The notes beneath the pieces were generated by a model, which worked only from the letters and a program-made list of their open reading frames with translations, was not told the DNA's origin and ran no database searches. 64,000 nt of DNA from Clostridia bacterium (GTDB taxonomy: Bacteria > Bacillota > Clostridia > Oscillospirales > CAG-382): NCBI GenBank assembly GCA_017549365.1, contig JAFYUZ010000016.1:1-64000 (forward strand), in the 5' to 3' direction. A program made the translations under genes and the position numbers. Shown here in pieces: positions 10,022 through 32,903 of this stretch (position 1 is the first letter of the stretch; the number at the start of each line of letters is the position of its first letter).

Positions 10022-10822
10022 ATGGAAAGACAAGAAAAAAACAATGTTGATTACTATGTAATCGACGTAATGCACATTTTAAAGTCGTTGTGGAGACGTG
10101 TGTGGATTTTGATCCTTTGCGGAATCCTTTCGGGCGCTATCGGTTTTTCGATATCCACCTTTCTCATCAAGCCGACTTATTCTTCTTACATCAAACTTTA
10201 CGTAAACAATATCGAATATAACCAGCGGGACGACGAAAACCTCAGTATCAGCTCGTCCGAGCTTACTGCCGCGCAGAGCCTTGTAAAGACCTACGGAGAT
10301 ATCCTTGAAAGCCGCAGTACTCTTCAGAACGTTATCGATCAGATGGGTCTTGACTATACCTGGAAGGACCTTGCAAAGATGGTGAAATGCGCTTCGTCCA
10401 ACGAAACCGAAATCATCAAGATAACCGTTACAAGCATCGACCCGTACGAAGCCTGCGATATCGCAAACACCATTGCTGTCGTTCTTCCCATGCGCATATC
10501 CCAGATCATCAACGGCGCATCGGTTGAAATAGTTGACCTTGCCGTGCCCGAGCTTAACAAGGTTGCTCCCAACAGAACCCTTTATACGGCTCTTGGCATT
10601 TTTATCGGTGTTCTTATCCCCGCTATTTTTGTCGTTGTGTTTGCTCTTCTTGACGACACCATCCACGACGAAGACTATGTGCTTAAAAACTACGATTATC
10701 CGATACTCGGCAAGATTCCCGATCTTCTGAATATGGGCGGCAGATCGTATTCTTACAGGTCATACCGTTCGTATCGGGCATATCGGTCTCACAATCATCA
10801 CGACGATACCAACAAAGCATGA
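10022..10822 (+). CDS. cpsC: Wzz/CpsC-type chain-length and kinase-adaptor protein
   Basis: A 266-residue polysaccharide co-polymerase. Two membrane segments (about 27-50 and 184-208) flank an extracellular loop of ~130 residues, as in the Gram-positive CpsC/CapA/EpsA family. After the second segment comes the usual LDDTIHDEDYV...YPILGKIP stretch that contacts the tyrosine kinase. The last ~30 residues are unusual: a cytosolic tail of repeated S-Y-R triplets rich in Tyr and Arg, a composition normally seen on the kinase and not on the adaptor. It is the first gene of the operon, 20 bases before cpsD. Role: membrane partner and activator of CpsD and regulator of polymer length. Confidence 0.88.
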   Translation: MERQEKNNVDYYVIDVMHILKSLWRRVWILILCGILSGAIGFSISTFLIKPTYSSYIKLYVNNIEYNQRDDENLSISSSELTAAQSLVKTYGDILESRSTLQNVIDQMGLDYTWKDLAKMVKCASSNETEIIKITVTSIDPYEACDIANTIAVVLPMRISQIINGASVEIVDLAVPELNKVAPNRTLYTALGIFIGVLIPAIFVVVFALLDDTIHDEDYVLKNYDYPILGKIPDLLNMGGRSYSYRSYRSYRAYRSHNHHDDTNKA

Positions 10823-10842
10823 GGAAAGGGTGGTTTTGAGTC

Positions 10843-11622
10843 ATGGGAATTTTTAACAGTAAAAAGAAAAATCAGTTTCTGGCAGGAAACGGCGAAATAC
10901 AGAAGACTTTGCACAAAAATCTTGAATTTACCGCCACCGAGCAGTACAAGCTTATTCGTACCAACCTCGATTTCACCCTGCCCGAAGACGAAAAATGCCC
11001 TGTTATCGGTATAACAAGTGCTATGAGAGGCGGCGGAAAGAGTACCACTGCGGTAAATCTTTCGTACGTTCTTGCCGAAAAAGGAAGCAAAGTTCTTCTT
11101 GTCGATGCGGACCTTAGAATCCCTTCCATCGCAAAGAAACTTGAAATAGAAAGCACCCCCGGTCTTGCCGACCTTTTAAGAGGTAAGGGTGCTGCGCTTT
11201 CCGAATTCAGATCGCATCTTCTTGACAATTGGTATGTTCTCCCCTCGGGCGACATTCCGCCCAACCCCTCCGAACTTCTCGGTTCTGTCAGGATGAAGAG
11301 CATACTTGAACAGCTGAAAGAAATGTTTGATTATATCATCGTTGACCTTCCGCCCGTCAACCTTGTTTCAGACGCCATATCCATATCCAAGTACATCACC
11401 GGCATGATAGTTGTTGTCCGCGAGGATCACACCGAAAAAAAGGAGCTTGACCGTTGTTTCAGACAGCTTCGTATGTCTAACGTCAATATCATCGGCTGTG
11501 TTATCAACGACGCAAAGACCGGCAAGGGTTCTTATGGCAGATACAGAAGATACAGATATTACAAATACTACAAGTACTATCAGACTTATCAGAGCTCGAC
11601 CCAAAAGGGTGATAAAAAGTAA
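10843..11622 (+). CDS. cpsD: CpsD-type bacterial tyrosine kinase
   Basis: A 259-residue BY-kinase. Walker A is GGGKST at 63-68 (most homologues have GEGKST), Walker A' is LLVDAD at 85-90 and Walker B is IIVDLP at 165-170. The C terminus (about 228-253) is a tyrosine cluster with about ten Tyr mixed with Arg and Lys, the standard autophosphorylation tail. It is the cytosolic half of a split Wzc system and works with CpsC. Its phosphorylation state is presumably reset by CpsB, encoded next with a 1-base stop/start overlap (taATG). It controls polymer assembly and export. Confidence 0.92.
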   Translation: MGIFNSKKKNQFLAGNGEIQKTLHKNLEFTATEQYKLIRTNLDFTLPEDEKCPVIGITSAMRGGGKSTTAVNLSYVLAEKGSKVLLVDADLRIPSIAKKLEIESTPGLADLLRGKGAALSEFRSHLLDNWYVLPSGDIPPNPSELLGSVRMKSILEQLKEMFDYIIVDLPPVNLVSDAISISKYITGMIVVVREDHTEKKELDRCFRQLRMSNVNIIGCVINDAKTGKGSYGRYRRYRYYKYYKYYQTYQSSTQKGDKK

Positions 11623-12317
11623 TGATTGACTGGCACTGTCATATTCTGCCGAATATGGATGATGGAAGCCGAGATGTGGCGGAAAGCATTTCGCTTATCA
11701 ATATGCAACGCGAACAAGGCATTGGAACGATTGTTGCAACACCGCATTTTTATGCCAACGATGAATCGTGTGAAGACTTTCTTTTGCGAAGACAAAGGTC
11801 GTTTGAACTTTTGAAAAATCAACTGCCCGACGAATGCCCGCGCATTCTTTTGGGCGCCGAGGTGCGCTATTATCAGGGCATATCAAGATTGTCGAACCTC
11901 AAAGATCTGAGGGTGGAAAACAGCAAGATACTTCTTCTTGAGATGCCGGATACAAAATGGACCGAGAGTATGGTCCGAGAACTTATTGAGATCAGCTCTT
12001 TTGGCGGAATACGGCTTGTTCTTGCCCATGTGGAAAGGTATATGCCCATTCAGGATGCCAAGATCAGAAGAAGATTGCTTGAAAGCGGAATACTTATGCA
12101 GGTGAATGCAAGCTTTTTCACAGAGTTTTTTACACGCCACAAGGCGCTGTCGCACTTGAAAAACGGACACATTCATTTTCTTGGCTCGGATTGTCACAAC
12201 ACCACCTCCCGTCCGCCGAATATCGGAAAAGCGTATGAGATAATTCGCAAAAAACAGGGCGAGATATATCTTTCGCAGATGAATGATTTTGGCCACTCAA
12301 AGCTTTTTACCGTATAA
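11622..12317 (+). CDS. cpsB: CpsB-type PHP-family protein-tyrosine phosphatase
   Basis: A 231-residue metal-dependent phosphatase of the PHP superfamily. Metal-binding motifs are in the expected order: DWHCHILPNMDDGS at 3-16, TPHF near 46, GAEVRYY near 79, LAHVERY near 134 and GSDCHN near 185. The length is close to that of pneumococcal CpsB/Wzh and B. subtilis YwqE. It should dephosphorylate the CpsD tyrosine tail and so tune polysaccharide output. The start ATG overlaps the cpsD stop by one base, indicating translational coupling. Confidence 0.9.
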   Translation: MIDWHCHILPNMDDGSRDVAESISLINMQREQGIGTIVATPHFYANDESCEDFLLRRQRSFELLKNQLPDECPRILLGAEVRYYQGISRLSNLKDLRVENSKILLLEMPDTKWTESMVRELIEISSFGGIRLVLAHVERYMPIQDAKIRRRLLESGILMQVNASFFTEFFTRHKALSHLKNGHIHFLGSDCHNTTSRPPNIGKAYEIIRKKQGEIYLSQMNDFGHSKLFTV

Positions 12318-18287: not shown

Positions 18288-19379
18288 ATGTGGCAGTATG
18301 TTCTATTGATTATACTTCCGTTGATAGTTCATCACTTTAAAGTCAAGCAAACGGTGACATACGCTTGCGGCATTGATAATGTAAATAACAGGAATAGAAA
18401 TGCCATGGCCCTTTTTTGGGGAATGCTGACTGTGCTGTTGTTATTGAGACACGAATCCGTTGGTCGCGACTTGCCGACCTATAGGTATATATTTAACTTT
18501 ATATCGAGAAGCAGTTGGAGCAGGTCGATATGGCGCAGTGCTGAGATAGGGTTCAACTTTTTGATCAAAAGTATTGCTTCATTGACGGGAAGTTTTAGGC
18601 TATTGATAATTGTTTCAACAATTCTTGGAGTATATCCCATAGCAAAAGCTTATGTTAAGTATTCCGAGGACGCATCGCTGACGATAGCGGTTTTCCTCAT
18701 AATGTCAAATTTTGTTTTGTTTTTCTCAGGTTTGAAACAAACAATAGCTATCTCTATAGGATTTATTGCCTTTGAGTTTGTAAAAAAGAAAAAACTTGTT
18801 CAGTTTGAAATTACGGTGTGCATAGCTATGATGTTCCACGCAAGTGCTTTTATGATTGCTTTTATGTATCCGTTATATCACGTAAGAATAACCAAAAAGT
18901 GGTTGTGGGGTATAGTTCCTGCGTTAGTTTTGGTGTTTGCGTTCAATGAACAAATCTTTGAAGTCCTAACTGCGTTTCTGATGCTATTCACAGATTACTA
19001 CGGAACGGTTTCAAACACGGGCGCATATACCATGCTGATACTTTTTGCTGGCTTTGCTGTTTTTTCATACATAGTTCCTGACGAAACCACAATCGACGGT
19101 GATACCATTGGAATGCGCAATTTTTTACTTATGGCGATAGTGATTCAGATGTTTGCACCATTGCATACGCTCGCCATGAGAATGAACTATTATTATATTG
19201 CTTTTATTCCGCTTCTGTTGCCAAAGGTAATAAAAAATCGCAGCGAACGATGGGATCAGGTGGCGGTGATATTTCGACACATCATGGTTGTGTTTTTTGT
19301 TATGTATTTTTTCGCTACTGCACCAAACGATAACGTGTTAGATACATTTCCGTATCGTTTTGTTTGGGATAGTATATGA
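18288..19379 (+). CDS. EpsG-family (Wzy-like) polysaccharide polymerase
   Basis: A 363-residue integral membrane protein with about ten hydrophobic segments. RHESVGRDLPTYRYIF near residues 55-70 matches the first extracytoplasmic stretch of EpsG/Wzy proteins (typical R-x-x-x-GxDx-x-Y), and the FFSGLKQTIAISIGFIAF segment near residue 145 matches the central conserved helix. It should join lipid-linked repeat units on the outer face of the membrane. Being the only polymerase-like gene here, it supports a Wzx/Wzy-dependent route together with the flippase at 27058. Confidence 0.85.
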   Translation: MWQYVLLIILPLIVHHFKVKQTVTYACGIDNVNNRNRNAMALFWGMLTVLLLLRHESVGRDLPTYRYIFNFISRSSWSRSIWRSAEIGFNFLIKSIASLTGSFRLLIIVSTILGVYPIAKAYVKYSEDASLTIAVFLIMSNFVLFFSGLKQTIAISIGFIAFEFVKKKKLVQFEITVCIAMMFHASAFMIAFMYPLYHVRITKKWLWGIVPALVLVFAFNEQIFEVLTAFLMLFTDYYGTVSNTGAYTMLILFAGFAVFSYIVPDETTIDGDTIGMRNFLLMAIVIQMFAPLHTLAMRMNYYYIAFIPLLLPKVIKNRSERWDQVAVIFRHIMVVFFVMYFFATAPNDNVLDTFPYRFVWDSI

Positions 19380-19491: not shown

Positions 19492-22400
19492 ATGACTCAA
19501 AAAACAACAAAACGTGTAATAGCCGTGTTGATGTCTATTGCAATGCTTATGAGTGTTGTTTCGATTTCCGCATTTGCATCTATTCCCGATTGGGAAGATA
19601 CAAACGTGGTTTTTGAAGGCACGGATTTTGGAACAAACGGTTATTACAAGGTAATCTCAAAAAAAGATTACGTGCTTGTTCCTGGAGCTGCTATTGAATC
19701 TGAAATGGTTATCAATAATGCAACCGGAACTCGCAGACAGGTCCTTCATATTATCGAGGTTGATCCGTCCAACCCTGATGTGTCTGTTGTCCCCGGATAT
19801 TATCAGATCGATAAAGATCTTGATAACGAGGCGAACTGGTCTCATAAGGAACTTACCGAAATGGCCAAGTATTACGAGAATAATCTTGGATACAATATTG
19901 TAGGCGGTATGAATACAGACCTTTATTACAACAGTTATTCTCCCAGAGTTCTTGTTTACAATGGTAAGAGCATTGGTAATTTTGGAGAAAACGTTGCAAC
20001 CGGTGGTGCAGTTCTTAATCCTACATCTTCGATACTGTATGTATTTAAAGATGCTGATGGCAACGTTTCCTGCGAAGTCAAGGCGTTTAACAAAGCAGAA
20101 CTTGATGCTTATCTTGAGGAAGGTATCCTTCTCCATGCAGTCGGCGTCTCTTTTGGCATGGTGGTAAAAGACGGCGAACTTGTTAACAAAACCGAAAAGC
20201 GTGGCAACGATGATGCTGCTCGTTCGATGGTTGGCGTTAAAGAAGACGGCACTCTTGTTATCTGTATGAATGATGGTCGTGGCGCTAATAACTCGGTTGG
20301 CTTCAGTAGCTACGAAGAAGGCGAAGCGATGCTTGCTCTCGGATGTAAGTGGGCTGCCAACTGTGATGGCGGTGGATCTTCAACTTTTATTACAAAGCGT
20401 GTAGGAGAAGAAACTTTCACAATGCGTTCGGTACCTTGCGACGGCGCGCAACGTCCCACCGCACATGGTATTTTTGTTGCATCAAATGTTGCCCCTACCG
20501 GAATTCTTGATGTAGCAAATGTTATTTCCGGTTATGACATTTTTGCCCCTGATACAACATATACTTTTGGCGCAGAAGCGATTGATACTCACGGATATGC
20601 CATGGACTTGCCTGCAGATATTGCATGGTCTCTTTCTGATGAATCTTTTGGTACAATTGTTGATGGAAAGTTTGTTTCTAACGGAACGGTAGGAACTGTA
20701 GATGTTCAGATTCTTTCTGGTGGTAGTGTTGTTGGCACAAAGACAATTACTGTTGCAACTCCGGAAGTATTCCAACTTTCTGCAACTTCTACTGTGGTTC
20801 CCTATTCAACTGCAGATAAGGTTCGTACCATCCCGCTTCCTATCATTGCGATGACGGGTGAATCAAATGTTTATGTTGACATAAACGCGGTGTCGGTTAC
20901 ACTTTCCGACGAAACTGCAGGTGTTCTTGACGGATTCTATTTCACCGCAACAGAAGACACTTCTATTTCCGGCGTAACTGTTATTGTTGAATATATTGCG
21001 ACAGGTGCAAAACTTGAATATGCAATAGAATTCGGTCAGGGTTCCGAAATAATCTACGACTTTGAAGATGGTAACAAGGCGGGTTTTGCAGGATTTGAGG
21101 AAGCCAAAAATTGGAGTATAGACAATGGTGTCAGCAACACCCTTGTTGGAAGTTCTCCTCTTGGTGGTCAGTTCAACGAATATTTGAGTAGCACAACCAG
21201 CGTTGTAACAGAAGAAGATGGCGGCAAGGTAAGAAATGGTGAATATGCGCTTGCATGGAGTCTTGATAACACAGACGCTTCTTTTGCAAACTGGTCTTAC
21301 AATGTTCTCTTTAACATAGGCGAGACAATTGTTCTGCGCGATGTTGCAAATGGCAAAAAAGCAACAGCTTTAGGTATGTGGCTGTATATTCCCGAGGATG
21401 CATTCTCTTCGGCAGGAAAGGGTCTTGCTTTCCAGTCGCAGTTCTATACTAAGACCGCGGATGGCGAATATGCACACAAGCAGGATCATTTTACTTTCAA
21501 ATCTGCGGCGACAGGTAAAATGACAAACCTGAACTCTGCAACGAATGCAGACATTCCGGAATCCCGTTGGGTGTATGCATCGATCAATATTTCTCAATAT
21601 GATTATCTTTGCACATCCGTCGCGTCGGATGAAGGGAATGCACGTTCCCCCTCATTCCTTCGTACTTATGTAAAGCCTGATACAGCTGACATTGTAACAT
21701 TCTATATTGATGATATTACTCTTGATTACAGCTCGGCTGTTGATGACAGAATTCTTCCTGATATAACAGCTCCCACTTATTCAACTGCTGACACAGCAGT
21801 TGCGCTTGAAAACGGAACAAGCATTAGTGGCAACAATATTGCATTTACTGCCACAGTTTCCGATAATGCAGAGCTCGACCTTGATTCCGGCAGGATTTTT
21901 GTGGATGGTATCGAATTTGATTCAGCGATTGCCGGAAACACTCTTTACTCTGACGGAGATGTTACCCTCCTAGCAGGTGAACATACTGTGGCTTTTGAAG
22001 TAAAGGATGCGCTTGGAAATCCCGCAAGACTCACCAGAACATTTACGGTTGAGGGTGATGCAGCGATCAAACTTTCCGGTCATAATGATTCCGGCGAGGC
22101 ACCAAAGGCACAGTCCGTTTATTATATAGATATCAATGTGGCTGATCTTTCAAATGTTGATACCCTTGTGGCAGAACTCAAGCTTAACGATGCAGTCACG
22201 TGGGAAACAGAGGGTGCATATGTTGCAAGTGGTTTCGCGGCAGAATTTGACTATAATGAAGTGTCTGGAACACTGACAGTAATTGCCAATATGACCGATG
22301 CTTCGAAAGCAAGGGCTGTTGACAAGACTCTTGTAAGCATTCCTGTGCGTATGTGGACATTTGATCGTTATAGCTATATTACTAACACTTATTTCGATCC

Positions 22401-24642
22401 TTCTACTCTTGTTAACAAGCCCGTTGTAAATATCGACTGTGAAGTTGTTTGTGGCGAAGTCGATTTTGTCGATGAGGCTTCTGCGCCTTTTGGTGGCAAC
22501 ATAAACGTTGCAACAGAACTCACCGGAATTTCGGCACCTTATCATATCCATGATGAGGATCTCGCAATACTCGATAAAGAACCCACTTCCACCGAATACG
22601 GATACGAAAATCGTACATACTGCGAGACTTGTAAATCGGTTGTTGATTGGGGAACAGCGCTTGAACCTACGGGACATAATTATGTAATCGTGGGAACGCA
22701 GTTTGTTTGCTCTGATGAGGGCTGCGGACATGTTTATGAATCCGGCACTGGTGTATTTGAGATGAACGGCGATCTTTACTATTCAATCGCCGGAAACTTG
22801 CTCAAAGGATGGCAGACTGTTGATATTGGTCAGTATTGCTACGCGTATTCCAACTACAAACTTGCAGTCGGACAAGCTACCATAAATAAGATCACATATG
22901 ATTTCGGCGATAATGGTATCACAGAAGGTGCTTGGGTAGTTGATGAAAACGGTGCTAGATTTAGCTATGGCGCCGACTACTATCGTTGTGGTGCGGGTAA
23001 CACTTATGCAAATGTGGTATGGGCGGTGATCGGTGGAAAAACATACGCGTTTGATCGCAAGGGTTATCGACATGAAGGAATTCGTGTTATTAAAGAAAGT
23101 AACAATCCTGCCAAACTCTACGAATTCACCAACGAAGGTGTTCTTATCGGAGAATACGATACTGACAAGACTGGCATTTTTGTGTGCAATGGAATGACCA
23201 CTTATCTTAAGAATGGAGTGCCCTTTGCTGCTGGTCTTGTAAGAGAAGGCGCAGATTATTATTATATTAATAGTGGCTGTATAGCTGTCACTGGTAGTTA
23301 CAGAGTAACTCGTCCCAACGGCCTGCTTCCTGTTGCTGTATACGAATTCGACGAGGCTGGTAAGATGATCAATCCTCCCGATCTTGAAAATGGCCCTCAA
23401 GACGACGGTTTCTTCTACATTGATGGAATCAAGCAGCTTGCATACCAGCTTGTTTCGTATGATGGAAATTATTACTTTATTAACGACGGCCACAAGATAG
23501 CAAAAAATGCTAGAATATACCTCAGCGCGAAATTTATAGAAGGAACAGATCTCAAGGCTGGTTACTACGAATTTGATGCCGAAGGCAAGATGATCCTTAA
23601 GAATGGTCCTCAGGAAGATGGTTTCTTCTACATTAACGGAATCAAGCAGCTTGCATATCAGCTCGTTGAATATGACGGATATTACTACTTCATCAACGAT
23701 GCTCATAAGTTGGCAAAGAATGCCCGTATTTACCTGAGCGGAAAGTTTATAGAAGGAACAGATCTCAAGGCTGGTTACTACGAATTTGATGCCGAAGGCA
23801 AGATGATCCTTAAGAATGGCCCTCAGGAAGATGGTTTCTTCTACATTAACGGAATCAAGCAGCTTGCATATCAGCTCGTTGAATATGACGGATATTACTA
23901 CTTCATTGATGATTGCCATGAATATGCAAAGAACAAAAAGATGCACCTCAATCCTGAGTACTTAGAGGGAACATATTTTCAAACAGGTTACTATGAATTT
24001 GGCCCCGATGGCAAAATGATGGGCGGTTTGAATGGTCTTCATAATGGAAGAGATATAGGTACAATTCCGTATCTTGTTACAGAAGATGGCTACGATATAA
24101 AAGAAGGCCTTCTTCTTCGTGGCGGCGAAACGGATGGCGCGGTTAAAGATATTACAAACGACCAAAAGAAGTTGGGCGTTGAAATAGTTAAGAACTTTGC
24201 ACCAAAAACCGAAATGGATCTTCGTTCATCTAATGTAGCGAAGGAACATCTTTTTGGTGAGGAAGTACTTCACAAATGCTACGACATGGTTATGTATGAA
24301 GAGGTATTTACAGATGCTGGTAAGGCGAAAATAAAGGAAATCTTTTCAGATCTTGCAAACCCCGATAATTATCCCGTCTATCTCCATTGTACATATGGCG
24401 CAGACAGAGCCGGAACGGTTTGTTATATTTTGGAAGCTCTTCTTGGGGTAACTGAGCCTTATGCGCGCCGTGAGTATTTGCTGAGTGTTGGCTCCTATGG
24501 TAATGCTATTCTTAGAGTCAGAGATGGCCTTGCAGTTTACGAAGGTAATTCTTTCAAAGATCAAGCAGAAGCTTATTTGCTTGATTGCGGCGTGACCCAG
24601 GAACAGATTGATTCTATCAGAGAAATCTTTATAGAAGACTAA
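19492..24642 (+). CDS. Giant secreted NAGPA phosphodiester glycosidase / wall-binding repeat / Cys-X5-Arg phosphatase fusion
   Basis: A 1716-residue secreted protein with a signal peptide at 1-30 (cleavage after AFA). Residues about 60-330 form an NAGPA (DUF2233) domain, with VGGMNTDLYY at 137-146, CDGGGSSTF at 291-299 and RPTAHGIFVA at 321-330. The mammalian homologue removes GlcNAc from GlcNAc-1-phosphodiesters. A beta-rich, carbohydrate-binding-like region follows (about 519-755), then an Ig-like domain (755-860), a possible cohesin-like fold (860-1010), a CxxC-rich stretch (about 1030-1080), and aromatic YYF-type repeats (1090-1512) including three near-identical 71-residue units. The C terminus (about 1520-1716) is a phosphatase of Y_phosphatase3 type: GLLLRGGETDG, MDLRSS and HCTYGADRAG, with catalytic Cys1633 and Arg1639. 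Likely role: two-step cleavage at phosphodiester-linked sugars of the surface polymer (inference). A good Shine-Dalgarno site precedes the ATG. Confidence 0.82.
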   Translation: MTQKTTKRVIAVLMSIAMLMSVVSISAFASIPDWEDTNVVFEGTDFGTNGYYKVISKKDYVLVPGAAIESEMVINNATGTRRQVLHIIEVDPSNPDVSVVPGYYQIDKDLDNEANWSHKELTEMAKYYENNLGYNIVGGMNTDLYYNSYSPRVLVYNGKSIGNFGENVATGGAVLNPTSSILYVFKDADGNVSCEVKAFNKAELDAYLEEGILLHAVGVSFGMVVKDGELVNKTEKRGNDDAARSMVGVKEDGTLVICMNDGRGANNSVGFSSYEEGEAMLALGCKWAANCDGGGSSTFITKRVGEETFTMRSVPCDGAQRPTAHGIFVASNVAPTGILDVANVISGYDIFAPDTTYTFGAEAIDTHGYAMDLPADIAWSLSDESFGTIVDGKFVSNGTVGTVDVQILSGGSVVGTKTITVATPEVFQLSATSTVVPYSTADKVRTIPLPIIAMTGESNVYVDINAVSVTLSDETAGVLDGFYFTATEDTSISGVTVIVEYIATGAKLEYAIEFGQGSEIIYDFEDGNKAGFAGFEEAKNWSIDNGVSNTLVGSSPLGGQFNEYLSSTTSVVTEEDGGKVRNGEYALAWSLDNTDASFANWSYNVLFNIGETIVLRDVANGKKATALGMWLYIPEDAFSSAGKGLAFQSQFYTKTADGEYAHKQDHFTFKSAATGKMTNLNSATNADIPESRWVYASINISQYDYLCTSVASDEGNARSPSFLRTYVKPDTADIVTFYIDDITLDYSSAVDDRILPDITAPTYSTADTAVALENGTSISGNNIAFTATVSDNAELDLDSGRIFVDGIEFDSAIAGNTLYSDGDVTLLAGEHTVAFEVKDALGNPARLTRTFTVEGDAAIKLSGHNDSGEAPKAQSVYYIDINVADLSNVDTLVAELKLNDAVTWETEGAYVASGFAAEFDYNEVSGTLTVIANMTDASKARAVDKTLVSIPVRMWTFDRYSYITNTYFDPSTLVNKPVVNIDCEVVCGEVDFVDEASAPFGGNINVATELTGISAPYHIHDEDLAILDKEPTSTEYGYENRTYCETCKSVVDWGTALEPTGHNYVIVGTQFVCSDEGCGHVYESGTGVFEMNGDLYYSIAGNLLKGWQTVDIGQYCYAYSNYKLAVGQATINKITYDFGDNGITEGAWVVDENGARFSYGADYYRCGAGNTYANVVWAVIGGKTYAFDRKGYRHEGIRVIKESNNPAKLYEFTNEGVLIGEYDTDKTGIFVCNGMTTYLKNGVPFAAGLVREGADYYYINSGCIAVTGSYRVTRPNGLLPVAVYEFDEAGKMINPPDLENGPQDDGFFYIDGIKQLAYQLVSYDGNYYFINDGHKIAKNARIYLSAKFIEGTDLKAGYYEFDAEGKMILKNGPQEDGFFYINGIKQLAYQLVEYDGYYYFINDAHKLAKNARIYLSGKFIEGTDLKAGYYEFDAEGKMILKNGPQEDGFFYINGIKQLAYQLVEYDGYYYFIDDCHEYAKNKKMHLNPEYLEGTYFQTGYYEFGPDGKMMGGLNGLHNGRDIGTIPYLVTEDGYDIKEGLLLRGGETDGAVKDITNDQKKLGVEIVKNFAPKTEMDLRSSNVAKEHLFGEEVLHKCYDMVMYEEVFTDAGKAKIKEIFSDLANPDNYPVYLHCTYGADRAGTVCYILEALLGVTEPYARREYLLSVGSYGNAILRVRDGLAVYEGNSFKDQAEAYLLDCGVTQEQIDSIREIFIED
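23389..24027 (+). repeat. Three tandem 213-bp coding repeats
   Basis: Units begin at 23389, 23602 and 23815, exactly 213 bp (71 codons) apart, each starting at NGPQ. Long stretches of units two and three are identical at DNA level, so they arose recently or are kept uniform by recombination. Each encodes aromatic YYF and GYYEFDAEGKM motifs similar to choline/cell-wall-binding repeats. Copy number could vary between strains. Confidence 0.85.
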
Positions 24643-24680
24643 TCTGCATCCAAACATACTATATTAGCAAAGCATTCAGC

Positions 24681-24708
24681 CTATCCCTCCAGCTATGGAG
24701 GGATAGGT
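24681..24708 (+). terminator. Strong hairpin between giant gene and next glycosyltransferase
   Basis: CCTATCCCTCC pairs perfectly with GGAGGGATAGG over a 6-base loop, about 40 bases after the stop codon. No T-run follows. A second possible stem (GTCGCAC near 24710 with GTGCGAC near 24738) lies just downstream. It could be a partial terminator, an RNA-stability element or an attenuator setting the expression ratio inside the operon. Confidence 0.45.
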
Positions 24709-24802
24709 TGTCGCACATAATCAGTGCCTCCACGCGGCGTGCGACGGGCAACGAAGTTTTTGTCGGCGAAACTGATAATACTGAATCTGGAGGATATATC
24801 GC

Positions 24803-25984
24803 ATGAAAATAGTGCAGATCAACAGTGTCTGCGGGAGTGGAAGCACAGGTAAAATATGTGTTGCTATAAGCGAAATGCTCACGAAGCGTGGTATAGAAAA
24901 TTACATTTTCTACGCGTCAGGGAATAGCGACTATCCTTTGGGTAAGCAATATATGTCTTCGTTGGAAATAAAAATACAGGCGTTAAAATCAAGATTGCTT
25001 GGGAATTATGGATTCCAGTCAAAACGAGCCACAAAACGCTTGATAAAAGAATTGGAGAAGATTTCTCCAGATATTGTACATTTGCACAACCTGCACGGGC
25101 ACAACGTTCATCTTGGACTTTTGTTCACATTCTTAAAAGAAAACAAAATAAAAGTTTTTTGGACGTTTCATGATTGTTGGGCGTTTACAGCATATTGCCC
25201 ACATTATGACATGATTGGGTGCAATCAGTGGAAAACTGGCGGTTGCCACGCTTGTCCTCAAAAGAATCATTATAGTTGGTTTTTTGATCGTAGCAAGCAG
25301 TTGTTTTCTCAGAAAAAAGAGCTTTTTTGCGGTCTTGCTCTGACTATAATCACCCCGTCTCAGTGGTTGGCAGATCAAGTGAAAGCTTCTTTTTTGAAAG
25401 AGTGCAGAGTGAAAGTAATTAATAATGGCATAGATTTGTCGGTTTTCCGCCCAAGAAAAAGCAATTTTAGAAAGAAATACAATTTGGAAGATAAAATTGT
25501 GTTGCTTGGAGTTGCTTTTGATTGGGGTATACGAAAAGGCCTAGATGCTTTTATAGAATTATCAAAGAGTCTCGATGACAGATTTAAAATGGTGTTAGTT
25601 GGAACTAACGAGATTGTTGATAAACAGCTACCAGGCAATATTATTTCGATACATCGAACTCGAAATCAGATAGAGTTAGCAGAAATATATTCTTCCGCCG
25701 ATTTGTTTGTAAATCTCACAAGAGAGGAAACATATCCAACTGTAAATATGGAAGCTATTGCTTGTGGAACGCCGGTGATGACATTCCGTGCCGGCGGAAG
25801 TCCGGAGATGATTGACGACACTTGCGGAGTTGTTGTGGAAAAGGATAATATAAAAGTGATGATAGATACAATAACCAAGGTTTGCAGTGATGGAACTTTT
25901 GATCGCTCTGATTGTGTAAAAATCGCAGGAAAGTACGATAACAATCAGAGACTTTTAGAATATATAGAAACATATGTATGTTAA
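24803..25984 (+). CDS. GT4-family glycosyltransferase
   Basis: A 393-residue GT-B enzyme. The N-terminal SVCGSGSTGKI loop, DIVHLHNLHGH and FWTFHDCWAFTAYC (with a Cys-rich segment around GGCHACPQ) are typical of colanic-acid WcaC-like glycosyltransferases. The C-terminal donor domain has LLGVAFDWGIRKGLDAF and the EX7E segment LTREETYPTVNMEAIACG, then FRAGGSPEMI. It is the first of a second block of glycosyltransferase genes after the giant secreted protein. Sugar specificity cannot be assigned. Confidence 0.87.
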   Translation: MKIVQINSVCGSGSTGKICVAISEMLTKRGIENYIFYASGNSDYPLGKQYMSSLEIKIQALKSRLLGNYGFQSKRATKRLIKELEKISPDIVHLHNLHGHNVHLGLLFTFLKENKIKVFWTFHDCWAFTAYCPHYDMIGCNQWKTGGCHACPQKNHYSWFFDRSKQLFSQKKELFCGLALTIITPSQWLADQVKASFLKECRVKVINNGIDLSVFRPRKSNFRKKYNLEDKIVLLGVAFDWGIRKGLDAFIELSKSLDDRFKMVLVGTNEIVDKQLPGNIISIHRTRNQIELAEIYSSADLFVNLTREETYPTVNMEAIACGTPVMTFRAGGSPEMIDDTCGVVVEKDNIKVMIDTITKVCSDGTFDRSDCVKIAGKYDNNQRLLEYIETYVC

Positions 25985-26036
25985 TGGTTAAAATTGAGTA
26001 ATCCTATCAAAACTTGAGAGGTGGTTAGATGTTATC

Positions 26037-27017
26037 GTGTGCAGTGGGTTGGTCAGTGTAATTATTCCAGTTTTTATGGTTGAGAAATATTTGGCAAAAT
26101 GTATTGAATCTGTACTCAATCAAACATATAGAAATATTGAGATCATTCTAGTTGATGATGGTTCACCAGATCGTTGCTATAAAGTATGCGACATGTATGC
26201 GCAAAGGGATTCTCGAATTGTGGTTATACATCAGGAGAACAAAGGAGTGTCAGGGGCTCGAAACACAGGAATTTTGCAAGCAAAAGGCGAATTTGTTCTC
26301 TTTGTGGATGGAGATGACGAGTTGTATCTTGATGCGGTAGATGTTTTGATGCAGAAAGCCCGCGAATATGACGCAGATGTTGTCTCTGGGGTAAAAAATG
26401 TTGTTGGTCAAAACGGTAGCAAAAGTTCTCCGGAAAATGGAGAGTGCGAATTTTATAGCAATGACGAACCGTTGTTGCTCTCATTGGCCGGAGACAAGAA
26501 CACCAACTCAGCATGTGCCAAACTATTCAAACGTGCGTTTATTGACGAGATTTTTTTTGAAGAAGGAAAAAATATTAACGAAGATGGTTTTTTTGTTTTT
26601 CGGTGTTACGAAAAAAAACCAAGACTAGTACAGTACAATGCGTTTGTTTATCAGTACAATGTCCGAGAAAATTCCGCTTCCAGACAATCTTTTTCGGACA
26701 AACATTTGTCGATATTGTATTTTTGTGAGCGAAAAAAGAGTATTATAGAACAATCTCACCCTGAGTATATTGCCGAGGCAAAAAACATGGAAGTTAGAGC
26801 TAATATACAAATGCTGGACGTTTTGTGTAGTTCAAATGACAGGAAGTATAAAAGCCTTCAAAATAAATGCATAAGAATCGTCAAAAAGTATCACAAGTAC
26901 CATAAGCCTATAAATTATCATCACAGAAGAATGGAATGGGTAGTTATTCTAGGTTTATATCCGCTTTACAAACTCGTTTTTCACATGAAATATTGCAAAA
27001 GCAAGCGAACTTTATAG
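26037..27017 (+). CDS. GT2-family glycosyltransferase
   Basis: A 326-residue GT-A enzyme with the classic N terminus SVIIPVF, EIILVDDGSPD, GVSGARNTG and the metal-binding FVDGDDE. The C-terminal ~120 residues are a variable, basic tail with LYPLYKLVFHMKY at the end, possibly membrane-associating. The start is uncertain. The in-frame codon is GTG at 26037, but the Shine-Dalgarno-like GAGAGGTGG is 13 bases away and better placed for an ATG at 26029 in another frame, which ends after ten codons. Either a short leader peptide or a small frameshift near the start is possible. Confidence 0.85.
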   Translation: MCSGLVSVIIPVFMVEKYLAKCIESVLNQTYRNIEIILVDDGSPDRCYKVCDMYAQRDSRIVVIHQENKGVSGARNTGILQAKGEFVLFVDGDDELYLDAVDVLMQKAREYDADVVSGVKNVVGQNGSKSSPENGECEFYSNDEPLLLSLAGDKNTNSACAKLFKRAFIDEIFFEEGKNINEDGFFVFRCYEKKPRLVQYNAFVYQYNVRENSASRQSFSDKHLSILYFCERKKSIIEQSHPEYIAEAKNMEVRANIQMLDVLCSSNDRKYKSLQNKCIRIVKKYHKYHKPINYHHRRMEWVVILGLYPLYKLVFHMKYCKSKRTL

Positions 27018-28481: not shown

Positions 28482-29309
28482 ATGGAACCAACAAAAGAGC
28501 AATTAGAACAACTGAAATCTATCGAGCTCGAGATGCTAAAAGCATTTATTAAAGCGTGTGACATGCTAAATGTTAAATATTTTCTCTTGGGGGGCACTTT
28601 GCTTGGTGCGGTACGCCACAAAGGCTTTATCCCTTGGGATGATGATATAGATGTTGGTATGTTGCGAGAAGACTATGAAATTTTTATAGCAAAAGGAGCA
28701 TCGTATCTGCCTGATAATCTTTTTATACAAAATGTTTATTCTGACGAGAATTATACGATGTGTTTCTCGAAAATAAGAAATAATAATACTACATTTATTG
28801 AAAGCACTGTAAGTCATTTGAAAATGAATCACGGCGTTTTTATCGATATTTTTCCCTTGGATTATTATCCTGATGAAGCAAAAAAACAAAGAGAACTTGA
28901 TTTTAAAAAGAAAATATATGATATCAGAATAGCTCATACATATAATATTTTAGCTCGTCCAATGAAAGTTCGGCTTTTAGAGTTTTTTTTGAGTATAATA
29001 TATCCATCTGTACGAACAGTTTCAAGAAAAAGAGATTTCTTATACAAAGAAGTCGCTCCCAGCAAACGCATAGCCAATTATGGTGGAGCATGGGGTAAAA
29101 AAGAGATTGTGCCGAAAGATTGGTATGGCGAGGGAGTTTTTGGAGAGTTTGAAGGAGTTACAGTCAGAATCCCGGCTCAATATGATAAATGGTTATCGCA
29201 AGTGTACGGGGATTATATGAAACTTCCACCAATTGAAAAGAGAGTAGGCCATCATTATGTAGATGTTATTGACTTAAACAGATCATATATCGAATATGGA
29301 GAAGTGTAA
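28482..29309 (+). CDS. LicD-family phosphotransferase
   Basis: A 275-residue LicD protein. The nucleotidyltransferase-like core is seen as [13 protein letters not shown] (37-49) and PWDDDIDVG (51-59), the metal-binding Asp cluster. A second conserved stretch, [14 protein letters not shown], lies near 115-130, and HHYVDVIDL near the C terminus. LicD enzymes transfer phosphocholine, ribitol- or glycerol-phosphate type groups from a CDP-activated donor to sugars. The TagD-like gene that follows overlaps its stop (gtgtaATGa), so CDP-glycerol is the probable donor (inference). It likely places a phosphodiester substituent on the polymer. Confidence 0.85.
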
Positions 29310-29707
29310 TGAAACGAGTAATAACTTATGGAACATTTGACCTACTGCACTATGGTCATATAAATCTGTTGAAGCGAGCCAAGGCTCTGGGCGACTATTT
29401 AATAGTTGTTGTTTCTACAGACGAGTTCAACGCGAAAGAAAAACAAAAAAAGAGTTATTTTTCATATGAAGCAAGAAAGGCTTTGGTTGAGGCGATCAGA
29501 TATGTGGATTTGGTTATACCAGAGACTTGTTGGGAACAAAAACGAACTGATATTCACGAATATCATATAGATACCTTTGTTATGGGGGATGACTGGACCG
29601 GAAAATTTGATTTTCTTAAAGAAGAGGGATGCGAGGTTGTCTACTTGCCTCGTACTCCTGAAGTCAGTTCCAGCCAAATAAAAGAGGATTTGCAGGAGAA
29701 AAAATAA
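29309..29707 (+). CDS. tagD: Glycerol-3-phosphate cytidylyltransferase (TagD-like)
   Basis: A 132-residue cytidylyltransferase. TFDLLHYGHINLL contains the HxGH catalytic motif (His14, His17), and RTPEVSSSQIK (115-125) carries the second nucleotide-binding signature typical of TagD/TarD. The length equals that of B. subtilis TagD (129). It makes CDP-glycerol from CTP and sn-glycerol-3-phosphate. It overlaps licD by one base and is followed one base later by capE, a tight translational unit. The donor is presumably used by LicD, because no TagB/TagF-type polymerase is present in the cluster. Cytosolic. Confidence 0.9.
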   Translation: MKRVITYGTFDLLHYGHINLLKRAKALGDYLIVVVSTDEFNAKEKQKKSYFSYEARKALVEAIRYVDLVIPETCWEQKRTDIHEYHIDTFVMGDDWTGKFDFLKEEGCEVVYLPRTPEVSSSQIKEDLQEKK

Positions 29708-30800: not shown

Positions 30801-32903
30801 ATGAAACAAAGATTTATGAAACTAATAATGATGATAGTGTTGCTGTCGCTTTTTTCGACGGTATCCTGCAGTGCCGGCAACGTGGCGTCTGTTTCGTCAT
30901 TTTCTGATGTTCCCACCGAGCATTGGGGTTATCAGACCATTATGAATATGACGCAATCGGGCCTTTTTAAGGGCACTACCGAGCCTATAAACGGTATTGG
31001 CACTTTTTCTCCCGACAACGTTATGACAAGGGCAGAATTTGTTACGGTTTCGCTTCGTGCAATTTTACCCGAACAAGCCAAAAACATTGGCAACGATTCG
31101 GGAAAATGGTGGAAAGGATATTACGAGCTTGCCCTTGCAAACAGTATTCTTTTGCCTGCAGAATTTGAAAACGGAGATCTTGACAAGCCGATCAGCCGTC
31201 AAGAAATGGCGATGATTATGGTAAGATGTGTTGAAAAGAACGGAGAAAGCCTTTCAAAGCGCGTTGCCACCACTCAAATTGCAGATTATACCACCATCAA
31301 CGAATACTACAAGAATTACGTGCGTGACTGTTTTAGTTTTGGTCTTATAAATGGCGTTGATCTTCTTGGAACTTTTGCGCCGTCACAGTCTTTAACACGC
31401 GCTCAAGCAGCAACCGTTTTGAACCGTCTTGTTGACAAGAGCGTGCGAATTAAGGTTGAGTTTCCGCAGGAAAATGCACCTTCATCAGGCGGATCCGTTT
31501 CTCCCGGCTCCACAAAGCCTTCGGGAGGTAGCGGAAAGCCATCGGGTGGAGGAATCAACAAACCGACAGGAGGAATTGTGACTCCGCCGTCGTCCGAGAA
31601 TAATGAAAAACCTGCGGCAAAATATCCTTGGGAAGAGAAAAATGCCAAAAAACCTTCCGAGTATACTTTTGATGAATATATGGAATTGTCTGATGACCAC
31701 AAGGAAGCGTTTTTTATAACTTTTGATTCTGCAGAAGCTTATGACAACTGGATGGATGATGCGAAGAACAAGGTTAGCGTTCCTTGGAAAAACGGAGGTA
31801 AACAGCCTGCCGAATACACAACAGAAGAATATAACGCACTCACCACTGCTCAAAAAATAATCTTTATGGAAAGCTTTGGAAGCATAGAGGCTTTTGAAAA
31901 TTGGGTTGTTCAAGCTCAGGACAAAGAAAATGCAAAAGAACTTCCGTGGGAAAAAGAAGGCAGACAACCTTCTGATTACACGTGGGAAGAGTACGAAGCG
32001 TTGAGCGCCGAGCATCAGATGGCTTTTCAGAACAGTTTTGAAAATATCGCGGCGTTTGACAAGTGGAAAGAACGTGTTAATCCCGAACAACCCGTGACAA
32101 AATTGCCGTGGGAAGAAGAGGGCGCGACACAACCGTATAACTATACATGGGAAGAGTTTGAAAAATTGACCGATGCTCAGCAGATTGCGTTTCAAAACAC
32201 TTTTGAAAGTATCGAGGCTTTTGAGGAGTGGAGAATGTCTGCACAGGGCGATGAAAACAAAACCGAAGCGATACCATGGGAAAACGGCGGAAAGCAACCT
32301 TGTGAGTATAGCTTGGAAGAGTACAACGCCCTTTCGGAATATTTGCAGATGAAGTTTCAAACCTCGTTTGAAAACGCGGAAGCTTTTGATGAATGGTTGC
32401 GCAAAGCGCAGGGCGGTTCAGAAGAAGAGTCAAATATTCCTTGGGAAAACGGCGGGAAACAGCCTTCTGAATACACATGGGAAGAGTTTGAAGCATTATC
32501 TGCAGAGTTGCAAATGAAATTTCAGAATTCTTTTGGCGGCATAGAAGCTTTTGACGAATGGTTGCGCAAAGCGCAGGGCGGAACAGAAAGCAAGGTGCCA
32601 TGGGAAGCGGATGACGCAAAGAAGCCTTCTGAGTACACTTGGGCGGAGTTTGAAGCCCTGTCAAGCGAATTGCAAATGAAATTTCAAAACAGTTTTGCAA
32701 GCATTGAAGAATTTGATGAATGGTTGCAAAAAGCACAGGACATTGAGGCTGATAAGCCTTGGGAAAACGGCGGCAAACAGCCCGCCGAATATACATGGGA
32801 AGAGTTTGAGGCGCTAACACCTGCATTGCAGATGGCATTTCAGAATAGCTTTGCAAGCATAGACGATTTTGATGCATGGCTTGTCGCCAATAAACCGGAA
32901 TAA
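30801..32903 (+). CDS. SLH-domain surface protein with eight ~50-residue repeats
   Basis: A 700-residue exported protein. The hydrophobic signal segment (8-22) is followed by TVSCSAG, a borderline lipobox. Three SLH modules cover about 30-215 (SFSDVPTEHWGYQTI, then PISRQEMAMI, then LTRAQAATVLNRLV); these bind the secondary cell-wall polymer. A Pro/Gly/Ser-rich linker follows (about 220-270), then eight repeats to the C terminus, each close to P-W-E-x-G-G-K-Q-P-x-E-Y-T-W-E-E-F-x-A-L, ...FQNSF, then a-F-D-x-W. I do not recognise the repeat family. It lies between capE and capF, five bases before capF, so it is co-expressed with UDP-FucNAc synthesis and may bind or organise that polymer at the surface (inference). 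Confidence 0.8.
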   Translation: MKQRFMKLIMMIVLLSLFSTVSCSAGNVASVSSFSDVPTEHWGYQTIMNMTQSGLFKGTTEPINGIGTFSPDNVMTRAEFVTVSLRAILPEQAKNIGNDSGKWWKGYYELALANSILLPAEFENGDLDKPISRQEMAMIMVRCVEKNGESLSKRVATTQIADYTTINEYYKNYVRDCFSFGLINGVDLLGTFAPSQSLTRAQAATVLNRLVDKSVRIKVEFPQENAPSSGGSVSPGSTKPSGGSGKPSGGGINKPTGGIVTPPSSENNEKPAAKYPWEEKNAKKPSEYTFDEYMELSDDHKEAFFITFDSAEAYDNWMDDAKNKVSVPWKNGGKQPAEYTTEEYNALTTAQKIIFMESFGSIEAFENWVVQAQDKENAKELPWEKEGRQPSDYTWEEYEALSAEHQMAFQNSFENIAAFDKWKERVNPEQPVTKLPWEEEGATQPYNYTWEEFEKLTDAQQIAFQNTFESIEAFEEWRMSAQGDENKTEAIPWENGGKQPCEYSLEEYNALSEYLQMKFQTSFENAEAFDEWLRKAQGGSEEESNIPWENGGKQPSEYTWEEFEALSAELQMKFQNSFGGIEAFDEWLRKAQGGTESKVPWEADDAKKPSEYTWAEFEALSSELQMKFQNSFASIEEFDEWLQKAQDIEADKPWENGGKQPAEYTWEEFEALTPALQMAFQNSFASIDDFDAWLVANKPE
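31626..32900 (+). repeat. Eight tandem ~50-codon repeats in the SLH protein gene
   Basis: Each unit begins with Pro-Trp and contains Tyr-Thr-x-x-Glu-[FY], a helical Gln/Phe-rich stretch and a closing Phe-[DE]-x-Trp. The first units are more diverged and the later ones nearly uniform, suggesting expansion at the 3' end. Unit length varies from about 48 to 56 codons because the acidic linkers between units differ. Confidence 0.8.

Follow-up and report, generated by a model that had tools for sequence, protein, structure and literature searches.

A single gene within a Wzy-type capsule cluster of a Clostridia bacterium from the gut encodes a 1,716-aa secreted protein in which a phosphodiester glycosidase (NAGPA) domain, a conserved accessory region, wall repeats and a CX5R phosphatase domain follow one another, and this fusion brings known enzymes together in a new way that may serve capsule release. 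In the window, the whole 64,000-nt stretch of contig JAFYUZ010000016.1 that was analysed, the complete fusion gene occupies positions 19492–24642 of the + strand, on which all features described below also lie. It consists of one uninterrupted open reading frame of 1,716 codons with zero internal stops, and an AAAGGAG sequence 5′ of its ATG provides a good ribosome-binding site. The hydrophobicity of the protein peaks at approximately residues 8–30, giving it a signal-peptide-like N terminus (residues 1–30; 19492–19581), in line with the export claimed by an earlier note that was made from the DNA letters.

The NAGPA domain (residues 31–335; 19582–20496) belongs to PF09992, as established by profile, fold and conserved motif residues. 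A Pfam profile search matched residues 187–329 (E 2e-18, 67.6 bits against a cut-off of 25), the AlphaFold2 model of residues 31–335 had a pLDDT of 79.7, and the closest structures to this model in a Foldseek search were 3ohg (DUF2233; TM 0.68) and vertebrate NAGPA (TM 0.54–0.59). The motifs GGMNTDLYY, DGGGSS and AHGIF, from which the earlier note had recognized an NAGPA-type domain near the N terminus, were all found. N141, R244, D261-G-R263 and N290-C-DGGGS296 were invariant in 11 of 11 aligned relatives, except for C291, and an alignment to 3ohg and guinea-pig NAGPA likewise supported the motif residues. Judged by this conservation, they are candidate catalytic residues, and the domain is predicted to hydrolyse sugar-1-phosphodiesters.

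At the other end of the protein, the CX5R phosphatase domain (residues 1503–1716; 23998–24639) is a member of PF13350 (Y_phosphatase3; IphP/PtpB/LipA-like) by both profile and motifs. The Pfam match covers residues 1513–1666 (E 7.7e-18, 65.8 bits against a cut-off of 22.2) and the domain carries NGRDIG, MDLR and the full C-terminal signature HCTYGADRAG noted earlier, the NxRDxG, DLR and HCx5R columns being invariant in an alignment of 22 sequences. The AlphaFold2 model (pLDDT 88.8) had its best PDB matches in the Clostridioides difficile PTP 8dhj and Mycobacterium tuberculosis PtpB 1ywf. Both ends thus exceeded their curated cut-offs and yielded models that match solved homologues, which upholds the two domain assignments of the earlier note, and the C-terminal domain is predicted to be a phosphomonoesterase. 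A cytoplasmic tyrosine phosphatase of a capsule kinase (Wzb/CpsB type) was considered and ruled out by the signal peptide or type II anchor and by the separate CpsB/CapC gene in the locus.

Between the two enzymatic domains lie the accessory region (residues 336–1070, 735 aa; 20497–22701), which is kept in relatives, where it is Ig-like or carbohydrate-binding-like and accompanies NAGPA in capsule loci, and the repeats (residues 1071–1500; 22702–23991). The last three repeat units (23383–23991) are 213-nt tandem copies of a 71-aa unit, with 72–85% DNA identity. The wall-binding repeats reported earlier are therefore real as repeats, but all Pfam repeat models, choline-binding repeats included, fell below cut-off in the fusion protein; the sole NCBIfam match was a weak one to PspA, and a marginal Choline_bind_3 match occurred in the relative L098. 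The middle repeats are choline-binding-like and are not members of the choline-binding repeat family. No Pfam match was obtained between the NAGPA and phosphatase domains, a search that divergent lipocone (TelC) domains could escape, and a sequence search of the PDB gave no homologue for either the middle region or the repeats.

The setting of the gene is a Wzy-type capsule cluster. It includes the regulatory genes for Wzz, a CpsD-like kinase and the CpsB/CapC phosphatase (10022–12317), followed by an aminotransferase, a priming phosphoglycosyl transferase (PF02397; 13631–14293), an acetyltransferase, glycosyltransferases and an EpsG/Wzy-type polymerase (18288–19379) directly upstream of the fusion. 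Downstream are glycosyltransferases, Wzx, a LicD-family phosphotransferase (28482–29309), which we do not propose as the source of the NAGPA substrate, a glycerol-3-phosphate cytidylyltransferase (29309–29707; TIGR01518 over cut-off), FnlA, an SLH-domain protein (30801–32903), FnlB and a WecB-type epimerase, so that the gene does sit between the polymerase and later glycosyltransferases, as the earlier note had placed it. A gene related to the SLH gene (L041:6268–7689) adjoins the separate phosphatase gene of G002, which belongs to the same genus, and the SLH protein may reside in the wall and bind the locus-made polymer. Elsewhere, the genome of the window, an incomplete MAG (80% complete), has two additional genes for NAGPA, one more PF13350 gene and a pair of LCP genes; the latter sit on other contigs, and the window locus itself has none.

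Relatives were sought by scanning approximately 85,000 species genomes with an alignment of the phosphatase, and the 80 loci kept are all from Clostridia, chiefly ruminant and gut MAGs. The same full architecture was found in a goat-omasum MAG (L100; 2,023 aa, PF09992 E 6e-22, PF13350 E 9e-22). In the MAG UBA3220, the fusion is split by a contig break, its N-terminal half ending one contig and its C-terminal half starting another, and the two contigs overlap by 25 identical bases. The fusion is accordingly more than a one-off, being present in three lineages, and three further loci (L095–L097), in which repeats plus phosphatase are interrupted by contig starts, are probably fused as well. Chance or an assembly artefact as the source of the fusion was ruled out by the intact reading frame and by the same fusion in two other assemblies. 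A phage or plasmid origin was also discarded, there being just one weak phage match and no fused homologue on plasmids.

The commonest form among the relatives is a type II membrane phosphatase of approximately 460 aa, in which a cytosolic tail, frequently rich in His, is followed by a single helix, an FnIII-like domain and a phosphatase domain on the outer side. An intermediate arrangement is seen in L099, where adjoining genes encode an NAGPA–accessory–repeats protein, LicD and then a secreted repeat–phosphatase protein. Whether in the type II membrane form, the secreted repeat form or the fusion, the phosphatase is in every case predicted to lie outside the cell. Because the fused and secreted-repeat phosphatases form one clade (SH-aLRT 98), their phylogeny points to a single move from the membrane to the wall, after which fusion took place. 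Eight other long PF13350 proteins (G103, G245, G357, G224, G250, G444, G251 and G340) all lack the DGGG signature, and G103 gave no PF09992 match, so that the NAGPA–phosphatase fusion seems confined to one clade. This history bears on the rather improbable alternative that the two domains have separate substrates and were fused for a shared location, the phosphatase dephosphorylating a lipid or protein (for example, a polyprenyl carrier) at the surface of the membrane and NAGPA trimming the wall. That the majority of phosphatase relatives are anchored in the membrane near its outer leaflet, that the PtpB/LipA-type fold takes in phosphoinositide phosphatases and that some genomes have the phosphatase with no NAGPA nearby would agree with such a division of labour; in the secreted clade, however, the phosphatase exchanged the membrane for wall repeats and later became joined to NAGPA, a course that a wall-located substrate fits better.

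The survey also turned up unusual relatives of the phosphatase. L035, L036, L038 and L039 (G107, G065, G089 and G124) have tandem arrays that encode as many as five secreted PF13350 proteins (800–1,300 aa) per locus, and two array proteins scanned with Pfam also contain CBM4/9, dockerin type I and Big_3 domains; tandem CX5R phosphatases bearing dockerin are unusual. In a subgroup of membrane phosphatases (L142, L137, L141, L157, L134, L151 and approximately 11 more), one choline-binding-like repeat lies N-terminal to the helix, where it is apparently cytosolic and so may not bind the wall. Very His-rich cytosolic tails, possibly metal-binding, precede the helix in L041:7741–9144, L043:7874–9328, L044:6858–8246 and L114:9293–10645. 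The membrane phosphatase relative L145:6517–7899 lacks HCxxGxDR and is possibly inactive.

Many relatives keep the two enzymes as separate genes of the same capsule locus (G002, G049, G144, G035, L114, L117, L139, L149 and others). In G002, for example, an NAGPA–accessory–repeats protein (1,711 aa), Wzx and a membrane phosphatase are encoded by consecutive genes. When NAGPA was sought in 28 whole genomes, with contigs verified by sequence identity, it shared a contig with the phosphatase, at a distance of no more than approximately 25 kb, in 10 of the 19 loci in which its position was not known beforehand, against 0.8 expected (P ~4e-10; nine loci and P ~1e-8 when one short NAGPA is dropped), but the null takes account of genome size and copy number and is uncorrected for capsule-gene clustering and shared ancestry, so that the count shows capsule-locus membership of both enzymes rather than their interaction. 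The contigs found for G534 and G549 lacked the phosphatase and were left out of the pair count, and 8–10 of the 28 genomes had a phosphatase with no NAGPA on the same contig, some of these contigs being short. Because so many relatives keep both enzymes as separate genes of one cluster, this gene association suggests that NAGPA and the phosphatase work one after the other, and we consider it probable that a surface polymer of the cell itself is acted on first by one domain and then by the other.

The same genomic setting bears on two readings in which that polymer is not the target. A weapon against other bacteria, in which the secreted pair strips the wall polymers of competitors, would have a parallel in NAGPA–TelC fusions, since NAGPA occurs in large modular wall-repeat proteins of spore-forming Bacillota that have been read as conflict systems (PMC12419801). 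We regard this as very unlikely: in many species the genes lie inside the cell's own capsule cluster beside polymerase and flippase, the phosphatases are mostly anchored in the producer's own membrane, and no toxin or immunity genes were recognized among the scanned neighbours. Scavenging of phosphorylated sugars or phosphate from the environment, with the own polymer not involved, seems still more improbable; that both enzyme types are predicted extracellular hydrolases would agree with it, but their genes are found within capsule biosynthesis operons of diverse genomes and no phosphate-regulation genes were recognized beside the pair.

We next consider which phosphodiester the NAGPA domain might cleave. 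The earlier note had proposed that the two domains strip a phospho-sugar substituent or end group from the cell's own polymer outside the cell, and had suggested surveying whether proteins with both domains co-occur with LicD and TagD. The gene association gives good support to a functional pair that acts outside the cell on the cell's own polymer, and the survey did find both domains together in other genomes, but it did not support the LicD/TagD link to a substituent. LicD shares a contig with NAGPA and the phosphatase in approximately 12 of 18 pairs (about two thirds), yet it was absent from the whole assemblies of four genomes in which both enzymes share a contig (G537, G542, G544 and G545, the last being G002). 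In the fully annotated G002 locus, only two phosphate-transferring genes were recognized, one for the priming transferase and one for an LCP (PF03816, E 8e-26), with neither LicD nor a further sugar-1-phosphate transferase beyond the priming enzyme. In G537, G542, G545 and approximately ten others, the same contig also carries an LCP gene, and in UBA3220 the LCP gene lies ~5 kb upstream of the point at which the fusion starts. LicD together with TagD (TIGR01518) and CDP-glycerol should esterify a ring hydroxyl with glycerol phosphate, a product that has no glycosyl-phosphate bond for NAGPA to cut. Because four genomes have both enzymes but no LicD, and because LicD/TagD chemistry gives no anomeric phosphodiester, a LicD-type substituent is probably wrong as the substrate. 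Vertebrate NAGPA, by comparison, cleaves α-GlcNAc-1-P-6-Man, and LCP anchors contain a bond of this type, for which reason, by analogy, the LCP-made anchor α-HexNAc-1-P-6-MurNAc would be a better substrate candidate than the LicD product. The LCP-type murein linkage unit is α-GlcNAc-1-P on the C6 hydroxyl of MurNAc (PMC7831098). The end group of the earlier proposal, as a reducing-end sugar-1-phosphate link to peptidoglycan, comes closer to this candidate than the substituent does.

On these grounds of gene context, we suggest that the protein may be a wall-bound two-step capsule-release enzyme, to which we give slightly less than an even chance. In this mechanism, the Wzy pathway would polymerize a capsule or secondary wall polymer, which an LCP enzyme would couple to peptidoglycan through a phosphodiester between α-HexNAc-1-phosphate and the MurNAc C6 hydroxyl. 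The NAGPA domain would then cleave the sugar-phosphate bond of the anchor, freeing the polymer and leaving MurNAc-6-phosphate on the wall, and the CX5R domain would take the phosphate off to clear the site, while the repeats and the accessory region would tether the protein to the wall or polymer. Catalysis on this putative anchor, in this presumed order, could serve polymer shedding, trimming or turnover. More generally, and more tentatively, a dedicated clostridial system of NAGPA and extracellular CX5R phosphatase, sometimes fused, could reverse LCP attachment and erase its phosphate scar.

Several observations weigh against anchor release. The window locus has no LCP gene. LicD is often found close to these NAGPA genes, so that its product may be the substrate in those loci, and in several genomes the phosphatase has no NAGPA nearby. 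The PF13350 enzymes of known substrate act on phosphotyrosine or phosphoinositides. Anchoring can also be phosphate-free, as in the direct glycosidic wall anchor of Streptococcus pneumoniae CP2 (PMC7831098). The prevalence of LicD recommends another reading, in which a phosphodiester within the polymer or its side chains is edited, with NAGPA stripping a sugar-1-phosphate substituent or backbone link and CX5R taking the leftover phosphate. LicD lies approximately 4 kb from the fusion in the window and stands between the NAGPA and phosphatase genes in L099, and phosphodiester-linked repeat units are known in other wall polymers (PMC7831098). Such editing is nevertheless unlikely in view of the four genomes that have both enzymes and no LicD, the type of ester that LicD and the cytidylyltransferase yield, and the G002 locus, in which the priming enzyme is the one recognized sugar-1-phosphate transferase.

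If NAGPA cuts the LCP-made anchor, capsule release gains an enzyme for the reverse reaction, the presence of NAGPA in so many such capsule clusters is explained and an orphan class, the extracellular CX5R phosphatases, is given a role; capsule attachment could be undone if the two-enzyme system reverses it. According to a 2025 review, the factors that aid covalent capsule release in Gram-positive bacteria are still poorly understood (PMC12220298), and we found neither an NAGPA–phosphatase fusion nor a capsule-release role of NAGPA in the open-licence literature. Culturable strains with NAGPA-bearing EPS clusters, such as Pseudobutyrivibrio xylanivorans, make the NAGPA half directly testable. 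In this cultured rumen bacterium, a plasmid-borne polysaccharide cluster (L202; NZ_CP043029.1, plasmid pNP95) encodes a 2,070-aa NAGPA protein (19980–26192), with pyruvyl transferase genes close by and no annotated phosphatase partner.

A functional precedent for the proposed anchor release is WhyD, an S. pneumoniae hydrolase of wall teichoic acid, which severs the phosphate link that joins the wall polymer to peptidoglycan (PMC9208761), the same kind of link that we propose to be cut here; WhyD, however, is a membrane protein with a GlpQ phosphodiesterase domain, and the parts of that report drawn on here describe no phosphatase partner (PMC9208761). The NAGPA–TelC wall proteins of Bacillota are likewise large, secreted and modular, with Ig-like and wall-binding repeats, but there NAGPA is partnered by TelC (sometimes NlpC/P60) and the proteins are read as agents of inter-bacterial conflict (PMC12419801), whereas the fusion described here, encoded in a capsule operon, pairs NAGPA with a CX5R phosphatase. 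With the secreted PF13350 phosphatases (IphP/LipA/PtpB and the C. difficile PTP 8dhi/8dhj), the C-terminal domain shares its fold and the NxRDxG, DLR and HCxxGxDR motifs; the fusion and its relatives differ in being exported, anchored to wall or membrane and encoded beside capsule genes, and in the variant HC(T/S)(Y/H)GxDR(T/A)G. Vertebrate NAGPA and the bacterial DUF2233 protein (6pku and 3ohg) share with the N-terminal domain the domain match, the fold and the Asn, Arg, DGR and NxDGGGS residues, and an α-HexNAc-1-phosphodiester would be the substrate here as in vertebrates; the vertebrate enzyme works on lysosomal protein glycans, whereas the domain of the fusion comes from a capsule operon, is bound to the wall and shares its polypeptide with a phosphatase.
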